Source of the DNA: Spirochaetota bacterium
GTDB lineage: Bacteria; Spirochaetota; UBA4802; JAFGJZ01
Assembly: GCA_016934935.1 (NCBI GenBank)
Contig: JAFGRW010000103.1
Location: 1-47,653 of the forward strand
Direction of reading: 5' to 3'
DNA length: 47,653 nt
Positions 20,552-28,263 of the stretch are shown in pieces; position 1 is the first letter of the stretch; the number at the start of each line of letters is the position of its first letter. The notes under the pieces are model-generated. The model ran no database searches. It was not told the DNA's origin and was given only the letters and a program-made list of their open reading frames with translations. The position numbers and the translations under genes were made by a program.

Positions 20552-20565
20552 TTGATTAAAGTCAA
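20552..20565 (+). promoter_or_regulatory. FNR/CRP-family box upstream of hydG
   Basis: TTGATTAAAGTCAA differs from the FNR consensus TTGAT-N4-ATCAA at one position. It lies about 70 bases before the hydG start, a normal activator distance, in the region between divergent ackA and hydG. Anaerobic control of hydrogenase maturation would fit. Confidence 0.5.
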
Positions 20566-20631: not shown

Positions 20632-21803
20632 ATGTCTATAATTAACGTGCAAAGTATTGATGAAATTCTGAAAACAGAAAAATGTGAAAATGACAGACTT
20701 AAGGACATCTTCTCAAAGGCAAAAGAATTAAAAGGGCTTTCCGCAAATGAAGTAGCATGTCTGACTTTGATAAACGATGCGGAAATGCTTGAAGAGCTGT
20801 TCGCAACTGCTCAGTATATTAAAAATTCAATTTATGGAAGAAGACTGGTTCTTTTTGCCCCTCTTTATATATCCAATCTCTGTGCCAACGAATGTCTTTA
20901 CTGTGCTTTCAGGGCAGGTAATAAATCTGTTCATCGCCGGGTGCTTAGCCAGTCAGAAATTGCCAATGAGATAAAAATTCTTGAGGAGCAGGGGCATAAG
21001 CGGGTTTTGCTCGTTGCTGGAGAGTCTTACCCTGAAGAAGGTTTTAAATACGTTCTTGACTCTATTGAAACGATTTATAAAACAAAGAATGGCCACAATG
21101 AAATAAGGCGCGTTAATGTAAATATTGCTCCTTTGAGCGTTGACCAGTTTAAGCAGCTTAAAAAATCGGCTATTGGTACATATCAGCTTTTTCAGGAGAC
21201 CTATGACAGGGATGTTTACAGTAAAGTTCATACAGCCGGAAAAAAGAGTGATTATGAATGGCGGTTAACTGCTATGGATCGAGCCATGGAAGCCGGAATT
21301 GATGATGTGGGCATTGGGGTTCTTTTTGGACTGGCTGACTGGCGTTTTGAGACTCTTGCTCTTATGCAGCATATTAATCATCTGGACAGCAAGTTTGGAG
21401 TAGGCCCGCATACCATAAGTGTTCCCCGTCTTGAGCCTGCAACCGGATCTGAAATTTCTGTGCATCCGCCTGTTCCAGTGGATGATATAACATTTAAAAA
21501 GATAGTTGCGATATTACCCGTCTTGGTTATATTCCTTCGTTTTGCACGGGTTGTTACCGTTTAGGACGAACAGGCGGTGACTTTATGGATTTAGCCAAAC
21601 CTGGTCTTATACGCCATCATTGCGATCCGAATGCTGTATCTACTTTTCAGGAGTATCTTAACGATTATGCTTTGCCCGAAACAAAAACGAGTGGCGAAGC
21701 TCTTATTAAGAAAGTTATTGACGAGATGGAGCAGAAACCGCGGGATTTAAGTATTAAGATGGTTGATGATGTCAAGAGCGGAAAGCGTGATGTCTTTTGT
21801 TAG
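20632..21803 (+). pseudogene. hydG: [FeFe]-hydrogenase maturase HydG, broken by an internal deletion
   Basis: HydG is the radical-SAM tyrosine lyase that makes CO and cyanide for the [FeFe]-hydrogenase H-cluster. The first frame (20632-21564) contains the CX3CX2C cluster motif C84-C88-C91 and runs normally to FKKIVA. It then switches to a short nonsense tail and a stop. The real C-terminal part continues in another frame from 21510: DITRLGYIPSFC, the second cluster motif CTGCYRLGRTGGDFM, then AKPGLIRHHCDPNAV and a normal end at 21803. Compared with the ~470-residue family, about 70 residues are missing between FKKIVA and the DxxxxGYIPSFC segment. Loss of part of the barrel should inactivate the enzyme. 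The start has GGAG upstream. Aspartase-like and hydF genes follow. Confidence 0.88.
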
Positions 21804-21844: not shown

Positions 21845-23239
21845 ATGGAAAAAAATTACAGGACAGAATCAGATTCTTTAGGCTCGGTTGAAATTTCAGC
21901 GGATTCATTGTTCGGCATAAACACGATGCGGGCACTTAAGAATTTTCCATTCAAGTCGCGCCCTGCACCTGAATCCCTGATTCGAGCCTATGGTACCGTT
22001 AAATACGCGGCTCTTTTAATGTGCCGTGATCTTGATGTGTGGGATAATTATAAAGCAGAATCGCTTATTAATGCCGCTCGCGAGATGTCGCAAGGTGAAC
22101 TCTCATCATGGATTGTTACCGATATGATGCAGGGTGGTGCCGGAACTTCTTTAAATATGAATGTGAACGAGGTGATTGCCAACCGGGCGCTTATACTAAT
22201 GGGTAAATGCGCCGGTGACTACTCTGCTGTTTCTCCGACAGATGACGTAAACCGCTTTCAGTCGACCAACGATACTTTTCCTACCGCGCTTCGTCTGGCA
22301 CTGATTAACTGTTTGCGCAGTCTTGAAAGTTCCGTTTCAGGTTTGCAGCAATCTTTCGAGAATAAAGAAAAGGAGTTCGCCAGGATTGTTAAACTGGGCC
22401 GAACAGAACTGCGAGAAGCCGTGCTTACTACACTGGGGCGGGAAATGGGTACATATGCTGAGGCTTTTGGCCGTGATCGCTGGAGGCTTTATAAATGTGA
22501 AGAGCGGCTTCGAGTTGTAAATCTTGGAGGTACTGCGATAGGTACTGGACTGGGTGCACCGCGGGAGTATATTTTTGGTGTTGTTACCAAATTGCGCGAT
22601 CTGACAGGAATAGGTTTCGCGCGAGCAGAGAATCTTCAGGAGGCAACCAGTAACACGGATGTTTTTGCCGAGGTGAGTGGAATTTTAAAAGCCTGCGCGG
22701 TTAATCTGTTAAAGACAGCCGGTGATTTGCGGCTTTTATCCGGTCCGTTAGGTGAAATAAATCTTGTTCCTGTTCAGGCAGGGTCTTCCATTATGCCGGG
22801 GAAATATAATCCCGTTATTGCGGAAAGTGTGTCCCAGGCGGCATATCAGGTTATGTCTAACGATAGCACTGTAACTCATCTTTGTGCTGCGGGAAACCTT
22901 GAACTGAACGCGTTTATGCCTCTTTTGGCTCATAACATGCTGGATTCTGCGGAGCTGCTCACAGAATCGTGCAAAATGTTGGCTTTGTGTGTAGAGGGCA
23001 TAAGTGCAAACGAGCAGGTATGTCAAGGCCAGGTCGAAAACTCGACCGCCGTGGTTACAGCTCTTGTGTCGGCACTTGGCTATGACACTTGCAGCAAAAT
23101 AGCCCAAAAATCGGCTGAAAGCGGTAAGTCAATAAGAGATGTATCGGTCGGAGAAGGTTATTTGAGCGGTGGTGAATTTGACAGGTTAGTATCTTTTGAG
23201 GCTGTATGCCGGCTTGGCAGCAAAATTGAAAATATTTGA
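21845..23239 (+). CDS. aspartate ammonia-lyase-like protein of the hydrogenase maturation operon
   Basis: The 464-residue product belongs to the aspartase/fumarase superfamily. Visible motifs are GAGTSLNMNVNEVIANRA, STNDTFPTALRL and the catalytic loop GSSIMPGKYNP. The family's aspartases turn aspartate into fumarate and ammonia. An aspartase-like gene lying between hydG and hydF is a pattern I recall from other hydrogenase maturation clusters, where its purpose (perhaps ammonia supply) is not settled. I place the start at ATG 21845, 42 bases after the hydG stop, preceded by a G-rich stretch. Two substitutions near the catalytic region (GRTELREAVLTT for the usual GRTQLQDAVPMT) suggest a divergent subfamily, so the exact substrate is uncertain. 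Confidence 0.85.
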   Translation: MEKNYRTESDSLGSVEISADSLFGINTMRALKNFPFKSRPAPESLIRAYGTVKYAALLMCRDLDVWDNYKAESLINAAREMSQGELSSWIVTDMMQGGAGTSLNMNVNEVIANRALILMGKCAGDYSAVSPTDDVNRFQSTNDTFPTALRLALINCLRSLESSVSGLQQSFENKEKEFARIVKLGRTELREAVLTTLGREMGTYAEAFGRDRWRLYKCEERLRVVNLGGTAIGTGLGAPREYIFGVVTKLRDLTGIGFARAENLQEATSNTDVFAEVSGILKACAVNLLKTAGDLRLLSGPLGEINLVPVQAGSSIMPGKYNPVIAESVSQAAYQVMSNDSTVTHLCAAGNLELNAFMPLLAHNMLDSAELLTESCKMLALCVEGISANEQVCQGQVENSTAVVTALVSALGYDTCSKIAQKSAESGKSIRDVSVGEGYLSGGEFDRLVSFEAVCRLGSKIENI

Positions 23240-23250
23240 AGGTTTGAGTA

Positions 23251-24471
23251 ATGCAAAACACACCGAAAGGTAGCAGATTACATATTGGAATATTCGGAAG
23301 AAGAAATGTAGGCAAGAGCAGCCTTCTTAACCTGATTGTCCGGCAGCAGGTCTCGATAGTATCAGATTTTGCCGGAACTACAACCGACCCTGTAGAAAAA
23401 CCTATGGAACTATTGCCGTTAGGCCCGGTGTTGTTTATTGATACCGCGGGAATTGACGATATTGGTGAACTAGGAGATCTGAGAGTTAAAAAAACCACAC
23501 AGGTTTTCAGGCGAACAGATCTGGCTGTTATTGTTACCGATGGAACCTGGGGAGATTTTGAAGACAGAATTTGTCAGGAGTGCGGGAAGTATGCCATTCC
23601 ATTTATTGTTGTGTTTAATAAAAGCGACGAGGTTAAGCCGCACAACTCCCTGACTGCAAAACTGACGGAAGATAAAATTGCGTTTGTACATACTTCGGCG
23701 CTGAATAATAGCGGGATTACGGACTTCAGACAGGCGCTGCTTGATAACGCGCCTCCCGGGTTTCTGAATAATCCGCAAATAATTGGAGATCTTGTTAAGC
23801 CGGGAGAAACTGTACTGCTTGTTGTTCCGATAGACAAGGAGGCGCCAAAGGGCAGACTTATTCTGCCGCAGGTACAGACGATCCGTGATCTGCTGGATAG
23901 TGATGCAATTTGTGTAGTAGCCAAAGAGAGGGAACTTAAAGCAGCTATTGATAATCTTAAAATGCCGCCAAAACTGGTTGTTACCGATTCACAGGCTTTT
24001 TTAAAAGTAGACGCTGATACTCCTGAAGATATTCTATTAACCAGTTTTTCTATACTTTTTTCCAGATATAAAGGGGATCTCGCAATACAGACACAAGGGG
24101 CTCTTGCTGTCGATAATCTTAAACCCGGTGACCGTGTGCTGATTGCGGAGGCATGCTCGCACCACCCCATTACCGATGATATAGGTACTGTAAAGATTCC
24201 CCGCTGGCTTAATCAGTATGTCGGGGGTGAACTGGATTTTTCAAATATGCAGGGACGTGATTTTCCGGAAGATTTATCAGAGTTTAAACTGGTCATTCAT
24301 TGCGGTGCGTGCATGTGGAACCGGCGCGAGATGCTTTCCAGAATGCTGCAGTGCAAAGAGGCCGGAGTACCAATCACAAACTATGGCCTGGTTATTGCTT
24401 ATAGCCTTGGAATATTCAAGCGCGCGCTTCAGCCGTTTCCCGAAGCGCTGGAAGTTTTCCTTAACAGGTAA
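23251..24471 (+). CDS. hydF: [FeFe]-hydrogenase maturation GTPase HydF
   Basis: HydF is the scaffold GTPase on which the [2Fe] subcluster is assembled before transfer to hydrogenase HydA. The 406-residue product has an N-terminal G domain with P-loop GRRNVGKSS near residues 15-23, the switch motif DFAGTTTDP, DTAG, and NKSD. A dimerisation region follows. The C-terminal cluster-binding motif is CSH near 301 and HCGAC near 350, fitting the CxH-X46-53-HCxxC pattern of the family. GAAGG upstream supports the start, 11 bases after the aspartase-like gene. It appears fully intact, unlike hydG. hydE is not in the window. Confidence 0.96.
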   Translation: MQNTPKGSRLHIGIFGRRNVGKSSLLNLIVRQQVSIVSDFAGTTTDPVEKPMELLPLGPVLFIDTAGIDDIGELGDLRVKKTTQVFRRTDLAVIVTDGTWGDFEDRICQECGKYAIPFIVVFNKSDEVKPHNSLTAKLTEDKIAFVHTSALNNSGITDFRQALLDNAPPGFLNNPQIIGDLVKPGETVLLVVPIDKEAPKGRLILPQVQTIRDLLDSDAICVVAKERELKAAIDNLKMPPKLVVTDSQAFLKVDADTPEDILLTSFSILFSRYKGDLAIQTQGALAVDNLKPGDRVLIAEACSHHPITDDIGTVKIPRWLNQYVGGELDFSNMQGRDFPEDLSEFKLVIHCGACMWNRREMLSRMLQCKEAGVPITNYGLVIAYSLGIFKRALQPFPEALEVFLNR

Positions 24472-26868: not shown

Positions 26869-28263
26869 ATGAAACAGATTAGAATCATCTTATATGCTGC
26901 CGTTGTGTTTTTTTCGGCCGTAATTCTGCCCGTAGAATATGACGAGGGATATCTTTTGGAGACTCCCGAATCGTATTATGGACGAATTGAGTATCTGCCA
27001 ACCCTGGAAAAAATAAACTATATCCGGGGAGCGGTTGTGCGTAACCGGGATGTTTTTATTAGCTGGATCAAACTGGATCAAAAGGATGTCGTTTATACTG
27101 TTTATCGAAATACACGTGTTATGGACACATATATGGCCTTTGAGAGCGCAATCGCTGTCGGAGAGGTCATCGACAGAGAGAGTTTTCTTGATACTTCAAT
27201 CAGGGAGTCCGGAGTTTACTATTACGCTGTAACAACCAAAAAAAACGGATATGCCGAGGATAAAAACCTTAAGGCGTATATGAGCTATTTACCTGATGGT
27301 TTTACTGTTAGAACCGGTGTTGATCACTCTACAGTATATTCAATTGATGCCAAGCGTTACAGTGACGGAATTGTGATCAGCTGGAAAAACCCCTATAACT
27401 ACAAGGGAAGTCTGTTTGTTTACCGTTCGACAGATGTAATTGATTCTAGTGAAGCACTGAACAGGGCCGTAATGATAAAAAAGACGGATAATGTCGAAAC
27501 CTATCGAGATCGTAACGCTTCAAGAAATTTTTATTACGCTGTTTTAATGGAGGGGCCGGATAACCGACCGGCACGGATTTTCAGCCCCGGAAATAATTTT
27601 ACGGGTCGAAGCTCGACTCCCCGTACTGAACTGCCATCAAATGGAAAAGCACGTCAATATGTAAATGCGTCAATTGAAGGAGGGCGGGCTGTAATAAACT
27701 GGCGTATGCCAAGAGGCAATTATCTTCTTTTTAAAAGCAGCACAAGACCGGAAACCCGACGAGACGCGCGCCGCGGACAATTATTAAAAAGATTTGATAG
27801 TTCGTTGAATTATTACTATGATAATAGCGGGGATTCAGATAGTTATTATTCGATAGTACCGGAAAATCGTGCTAATGACACACGAAGGATTGTTGAAGGA
27901 ATAGACATGGTTTTCCTTCCGTCTAATAAAGCTGTAGAACCCAAGATAAAAAGCGGCACGGAGCTATCGAGGCTTGATGATGTAACAAGTTCAGATGTTT
28001 CGGCTGACAGCATTGACCGGCTGGTTAAGGAATTTTACCGTACAAAGAACTATAAGCCGATTATACGACAGCTTCTTAAAATAGCATCTGGCAGTGGTAA
28101 CGGGCCTTACAGAGCCAAGGCCTATTTTTTTGCGGGTCGCATTATTGCCGAGCAGGGAGATTACCGTATGGCATTAAATTATTTGTACCGTGATGATGTA
28201 ATTAAGTATTATCCTAAAGAGGCAAAGTTCTGGCAGGACTATTGTCTGACAAAATTGGAATAG
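26869..28263 (+). CDS. secreted protein with fibronectin type III-like repeats, function unknown
   Basis: The 464-residue product has an N-terminal signal segment (residues 4-21). Three ~90-residue units follow that look like fibronectin type III domains, with patterns such as VFISWIKLDQKDVVYTVYRNT, IVISWKNPYNYKGSLFVYRST and AVINWRMPRGNYLLFKSS. Each has the tryptophan and YxVYR-type strands of that fold. The last ~90 residues are helical and TPR-like (YRAKAYFFAGRIIAEQGDYRMAL). It is probably periplasmic or surface exposed. Ten bases after its stop a TPR protein gene begins, so the two form an operon. No specific function is recognised. Confidence 0.75.
   Translation: MKQIRIILYAAVVFFSAVILPVEYDEGYLLETPESYYGRIEYLPTLEKINYIRGAVVRNRDVFISWIKLDQKDVVYTVYRNTRVMDTYMAFESAIAVGEVIDRESFLDTSIRESGVYYYAVTTKKNGYAEDKNLKAYMSYLPDGFTVRTGVDHSTVYSIDAKRYSDGIVISWKNPYNYKGSLFVYRSTDVIDSSEALNRAVMIKKTDNVETYRDRNASRNFYYAVLMEGPDNRPARIFSPGNNFTGRSSTPRTELPSNGKARQYVNASIEGGRAVINWRMPRGNYLLFKSSTRPETRRDARRGQLLKRFDSSLNYYYDNSGDSDSYYSIVPENRANDTRRIVEGIDMVFLPSNKAVEPKIKSGTELSRLDDVTSSDVSADSIDRLVKEFYRTKNYKPIIRQLLKIASGSGNGPYRAKAYFFAGRIIAEQGDYRMALNYLYRDDVIKYYPKEAKFWQDYCLTKLE

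Follow-up and report, generated by a model that had tools for sequence, protein, structure and literature searches.

Assembly of the catalytic metal centre in iron-iron hydrogenases requires the enzyme HydG. Iron acquires its CO and cyanide at the auxiliary cluster of HydG, and the two HydG chains found among the solved structures both carry the auxiliary motif CX2CX22C. In the available part of PMC9431212 the cluster of this motif was found by mutation to be essential in HydG, auxiliary-site sequences are reported to vary among HydGs, and the C. autoethanogenum HydG CLAU_RS03260 is described with the spacing C-x(5)-C-x(19)-C and deemed a plausible HydG. ThiH and HydG share a tyrosine-cleaving radical-SAM core (PMC9046217), and the text of that paper available to us lists T299, R300, R306, S318 and S321 of ThiH as tyrosine-binding residues that are conserved in HydG, with T299, R306, S318 and S321 placed around the phenolate. 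An aspA gene has been described beside hyd maturase genes, where its product was proposed as the ammonium source for the bridging ligand (PMC11736057, in the portion available). Residue numbers used below are those of ThiH (TcThiH), mapped onto HydG via the 7pd1 alignment.

The window analysed here is the whole of contig C4 (47,653 bp) of a metagenome-assembled spirochaete genome, G000 (3.75 Mb in 138 contigs, 89% complete, 1% contamination), and a genome of the same genus, G001, served as the reference for hydG, gene order and operon comparisons. The window's hyd operon has the order hydG, aspA-like gene, hydF, and its features are as follows:

20552–20565, + strand: TTGA-N6-TCAA box, a pattern match 66 bases upstream of the hydG start
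20632–21564, + strand: 5′ fragment of canonical hydG, 310 aa (TIGR03955, 325.6 bits, profile 15–310; G001 alignment)
21508–21519, + strand: deletion junction, 208 bp absent relative to G001, with the probable repeat word GATATTAC at 21510–21517
21510–21803, + strand: 3′ part of hydG, lying in a different frame and including the CX2CX22C end for the auxiliary cluster (TIGR03955, 95.8 bits, profile 377–468)
21845–23239, + strand: aspartate ammonia-lyase-like gene of the hyd operon, intact (NF008909, 556 bits)
23251–24471, + strand: hydF, intact (TIGR03918, 571 bits; cut-off 326)

The native hydG of this operon is a dead gene that has lost both its frame and its substrate-binding segment. An earlier note on this DNA had described HydG motifs in two frames and an internal loss of about 70 residues, and both descriptions hold: TIGR03955 matches 20641–21534 (profile positions 12–311) and, in the other frame, 21519–21794 (376–468), and alignment with the intact 467-aa open frame of G001 hydG leaves one large gap of 208 bp (69 codons plus one base) at 21508–21519, the remaining gaps being only 9 and 3 bases long and near the 5′ end. 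The left fragment retains the radical-SAM CX3CX2C motif (CANECLYC) and is HydG-like up to the junction (~21517), after which an out-of-frame tail runs to a stop at 21562–21564, while the auxiliary CX2CX22C sits solely in the other frame, out of frame with the core. The equivalents of T299, R300, R306, S318 and S321 all lie within the deleted segment.

The junction sequence is GTTGCGATATTACCCGT; translated in the two frames its bases give A-I-L and D-I-T, the same pair of readings that the earlier note had given. That note also proposed recombination between two short direct repeats, an idea that fits: the protein P0122, an 86% relative that is intact at the junction, has IVAILR on the left and IADVAR on the right, both flanks are consistent with such repeats, and the word GATATTAC is compatible with both coding frames. 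The repeat is shorter than first thought, since an Ala codon stands before the right-hand copy and the shared word is thus probably GATATTAC (8 bp, or 9 if that Ala codon is GCC as in G001) and not all 10 bases. This word occurs five times in the window against 1.65 expected.

Both halves of hydG are free of other frame lesions in the G001 alignment, and their pN/pS values against G001 (0.23 and 0.14) compare with 0.22 for hydF and 0.32 for aspA. These ratios give no signal of relaxed selection on hydG; synonymous sites are saturated in this comparison, so that neither the timing of the deletion nor relaxed selection is measurable by it. The lack of further lesions and the hydF-like ratios support the suggestion of a recent loss, and the deletion seems young when set against the split from G001. 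The aspartase-like gene and hydF, which the earlier note had described as looking intact, are intact. The aspA-like ORF reaches upstream as far as a TTG at 21797 and is 65% identical to the G001 gene at the same place; hydF is 78% identical to G001 hydF and is the only hydF above cut-off in a profile search of G000. The upstream TTGA-N6-TCAA box, which we take to be an FNR-type consensus, is the sole match in the 47.6-kb window and weak as a match alone (2.3 expected by chance), and the same box lies 71 bases upstream of hydG in G001, inside a 36-base stretch of 83% identity. Elsewhere in the window, 26869–28263 is a 464-aa ORF with no NCBIfam match, and G001 has a 481-aa ORF at a like place.

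A search of the genome for hyd genes found, besides the hydF of the window, a second hydG, hydE and two HydA-type proteins. The second hydG, a copy whose existence the earlier note had offered as one way out, is intact, belongs to a different class and lies in a seemingly foreign cassette on contig C91 (11270–12817, 515 aa; TIGR03955 427.6 bits against a cut-off of 312.15); we refer to its product as alt-HydG. It adjoins a gene for a TM1266-type hydrogenase regulator (TIGR03959, 104.9 bits). The distance between flanking acyltransferase-like and histidine kinase genes is 2758 bp in G000 and 479 bp in G001, which gives an insertion of ~2.3 kb, and the 2758-bp stretch contains a 140-aa ORF, the regulator and alt-hydG, none of the three having a match in G001 C49:74000–90000. 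Twelve of the 20 ORFs listed on C91:1–20000 have a best match that is collinear on this same piece of C49 (of the other eight, four are near the stretch ends, one is small and three are in the gap). C91 as contamination of the bin was rejected; the collinear flanks of the cassette tie the contig to G000. The 140-aa ORF (L202:10355–10777) matches no NCBIfam or Pfam family and may be left over from the element that carried the cassette in; a repeat search for mobile-element ends at the insertion gave only 14–23-base pairs, the longest of them AT-rich.

The hyd operon of Spirochaetes bacterium ADurb.Bin215 (L051) comprises regulator, alt-hydG, hydF and hydE. Its regulator and alt-HydG are 82% and 83% identical to those of the G000 cassette, whereas the native hydF and hydE of G000 are only 49% and 36% identical to their counterparts there, so a horizontal gain is likely; on these identities the simplest reading is that the regulator-hydG cassette came from another spirochaete, the direction of transfer being what we infer, and the alternative to a gain in G000 is a loss of the cassette in G001. 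A tree of 91 rows made by a quick method groups G000 alt-HydG with P0001, near P0002, L051 and L055, in a mainly spirochaete alt clade, and groups the window's hydG fragment with P0122 and G001. The GC3 of alt-hydG (34.6) is within the range of its five neighbours (30.1–36.0), a comparison in which no foreign base composition and no sign of recent arrival were seen. In another genome of the same order (G007) the only HydG over the cut-off is of the alt class, groups with Marinimicrobia on a separate alt branch, and is encoded on another contig than hydE and hydF (contigs C71 and C100); alt-HydG may thus have entered this order twice.

The class to which alt-HydG belongs was compared with canonical HydG in 202 alt rows (120 proteins, 80 named loci, G000 and the same-order G007, with proteins and loci not deduplicated against each other) and 127 canonical rows (119 proteins plus 8 from same-order genomes). 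The named alt loci number at least 80 and come from many phyla. The 120 nearest homologues of alt-HydG all have FCT[A/S]GYRCGRTG, and the auxiliary cysteines are spaced CX5CX19C in 202 of 202 alt rows and CX2CX22C in 126 of 127 canonical rows, the last of which has no readable motif; in the alt rows the place of the second auxiliary cysteine is taken by Gly, with an additional Cys three residues further on. Pocket residues were counted in 201 alt rows, G007 having been placed in the other group. All 201 have Asp at the S318 equivalent and N, C, A or V, never Thr, at the T299 equivalent; the equivalents of R300, E301, N158 and E128 are kept in every one, and the CX3CX2C core is present in 200, the remaining row being gapped. 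None of the 121 rows in the first alt group keeps the R306 equivalent, yet it is R in 49 of the 80 loci. G000 alt-HydG itself has N, D, S and L at the T299, S318, S321 and R306 equivalents, respectively. The alt class is monophyletic (SH-aLRT 100) and nests within canonical HydG with distant ThiH outermost, a placement that carries a long-branch warning. An AlphaFold2 model of alt-HydG has a mean pLDDT of 86.8, with values under 50 at 425–427.

A universal linkage between Asp318 and the moved cysteine was rejected, as it holds in the alt rows and fails outside them (in L179 and L180 the Asp goes together with CTACYR). The second HydG of Pontiella (L193), which has SQIDAGS with CTGCYR, and L179 and L180 all have CX2C and an Asp at the S318 place (SQIDAGS, TQIDADS), and by these motifs they are possible intermediates between the two classes. 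Seven other spirochaete HydGs (L175, L177, L178, L181, L182, L183 and L184) have the auxiliary-site variants CTAGYRI, CTADYRL and CTADYRC and, judged by eye, one or more further Cys within the span bounded by the first and last ones, as though the second auxiliary-cluster ligand wandered in them.

Does alt-HydG do the job of HydG? Its lack of CX2CX22C, the motif of a cluster that is essential in HydG, means that function by analogy is not guaranteed. Co-occurrence was examined in 44 of the 80 genomes with named alt loci. In 40 of these alt-HydG is the only full-length HydG, several of them having weaker ThiH-like matches, and the other 4 keep a second full-length HydG (41–49% identity, all with the CX2C motif), so the two classes can coexist. 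HydF is present in all 44 (partial in G045, G057 and G063), a HydA domain in 43 (the miss being G065) and HydE in 42 (missing in G043 and G045). In 41 of 80 alt loci the 1.5 kb upstream holds a TM1266-like gene on the same strand, 12 of the 80 having less than 1.5 kb of upstream DNA, and a protein cluster that we identify as HydF from one representative is found in 49 of 81 alt loci, in 46 of them within 1.5 kb. Among 296 genomes of the spirochaete phylum, with at most five candidates scored per genome, 94 contain HydG at E ≤ 1e-70. A single match of this strength is present in 93 of them; the exception is G000 with two, of which one is the broken gene. G045 (Brucepastera parasyntrophica, L058), a complete chromosome with alt-HydG, yields no HydE at an E limit of 1e-50, and its HydF match is confined to positions 2–316 of 392, so that its maturation may be eroding; in G057 (Treponema sp. 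JC4) the hydF match begins at profile position 77 and includes one internal stop.

G000 keeps hydE, hydF and HydA, all on contigs other than C91. Two of its HydA-type proteins were recognised by what we take to be H-cluster motifs (three by pattern on C54; two by pattern and the third by eye on C104), and two further proteins with a HydA domain, on C53 and C136, look sensor-like. The option in the earlier note that hydrogenase maturation is broken is probably wrong, because the second hydG, of a different class and in the seemingly foreign cassette, is intact. Alt-HydG presumably matures hydrogenase in G000. It is predicted to do the same overall job, cleaving an aromatic amino acid (probably tyrosine) to a CO/CN-bearing iron unit, and its auxiliary cluster would be held by the relocated second cysteine.

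By itself the hydG deletion would be an ordinary pseudogene; its interest is the likely reason why it was tolerated, namely that a HydG class whose cluster motif and pocket differ from the textbook ones has taken its place. With the deletion, the insertion site, the cassette identities, the split between classes and the co-occurrence with hydrogenase genes all observed directly, a HydG displacement caught midway is the most likely explanation. We put at roughly three in four the probability that the native hydG was broken by the 208-bp out-of-frame deletion and that the cassette alt-HydG, likely gained from another spirochaete, likely now serves the native HydE, HydF and hydrogenases as their source of HydG function. 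The order of events that we infer is entry of the cassette followed by decay of the native hydG. The cassette of TM1266-type regulator and alt-HydG would have entered between two chromosomal genes; with two HydGs present the native operon's hydG would have become dispensable, and slippage or recombination between the 8–9-base direct repeats would have removed the substrate-binding segment and broken the frame. Native HydE and HydF would now receive the CO/CN iron unit from alt-HydG, for use in the HydA-type proteins of C54 and C104 and perhaps in those of C53 and C136. The steps of the AspA-like enzyme and of HydF would come after the HydG step, whichever HydG performs it, and in this proposed course aspA and hydF would have stayed because the imported HydG would still need them.

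It is quite unlikely that the break is an assembly artefact, as the earlier note had allowed, or a minority allele, with most cells carrying an intact hydG. That G000 is a metagenome assembly in 138 contigs and 89% complete speaks for this explanation, but the junction lies inside a 47.6-kb contig at an 8–9-base repeat, and such a repeat is far shorter than assembly words. In addition, an identical truncated protein (P0121) is present on two contigs, which may or may not come from independent samples, by length neither of them the window contig, the longest (30,775 bp) being shorter than it; among the best 120 of 7995 proteins scored the next nearest is 86% identical, and a single bad assembly is therefore disfavoured. 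We also regard as unlikely that HydG function has been lost altogether, alt-HydG having another job and the hydrogenases lacking an H-cluster. The missing canonical auxiliary motif and the Asp at the S318 equivalent would suit such a loss, as would C91, which has no hydE, hydF or hydA match over the family cut-offs. Against it stand the hydrogenase-system regulator that alt-hydG adjoins here, the regulator and HydF genes near so many other alt loci, and the 44 genomes examined, 40 of which have alt-HydG as their only full-length HydG and which together hold HydF in all cases and HydA and HydE in nearly all.

That the broken hydG still works, through two interacting fragments or programmed frameshifting, is scarcely credible. 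Neither half has other frame lesions, and their pN/pS values are not raised relative to hydF, which is what continued function would predict, but 69 codons are gone and with them the R300, T299, R306, S318 and S321 equivalents. Programmed frameshifting was rejected on this ground, as it cannot restore substrate-binding residues that the DNA no longer encodes.

Returning to displacement of the native HydG by alt-HydG, a broader form of it can be put forward tentatively, at a little under even odds: a second HydG class would do the same job with one auxiliary cysteine moved by three residues, an Asp in the tyrosine pocket and a different handling of the substrate or a different substrate, and a regulator-hydG cassette would cross spirochaete lineages and displace canonical HydG, leaving native HydE and HydF in place, G000 being in mid-swap. 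If true, so widespread a class would show which features of HydG auxiliary-cluster chemistry are truly required. A genome in which the canonical HydG is dead and another, likely imported, is live would be a natural swap experiment, which predicts that alt-HydG can hand its product to the HydE and HydF of another lineage.

A HydG with CX5CX19C is already in print for one organism, and in our search of the literature on HydG variants, transfer and pseudogenes, mostly in outline, this spacing was found only in PMC9431212, and no published description of the alt class, its pocket change or a displacement was found. The C. autoethanogenum HydG, compared by its published description, has spacing identical to that of the alt class; it is a single gene of one organism, and the available part of PMC9431212 describes no class, pocket change or displacement. 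As in the aspA-containing hyd operon of the available text of PMC11736057, aspA lies here beside hyd maturase genes, but the hydG of this operon is broken. The ThiH tyrosine lyase (7pd1) has the same fold as the alt-HydG model at 25% identity and is without the HydG auxiliary-cluster end, its alignment to HydG stopping before this. Closest is canonical HydG (TIGR03955; 4wcx, 4rtb): the model matches 4wcx_A with a TM score of 0.85 by query and 0.96 by target at 43% identity, and alt-HydG keeps the CX3CX2C core and R300, E301, N158 and E128, but differs from it in the CX5CX19C spacing, in Asp for S318 and in a residue other than Thr at T299.
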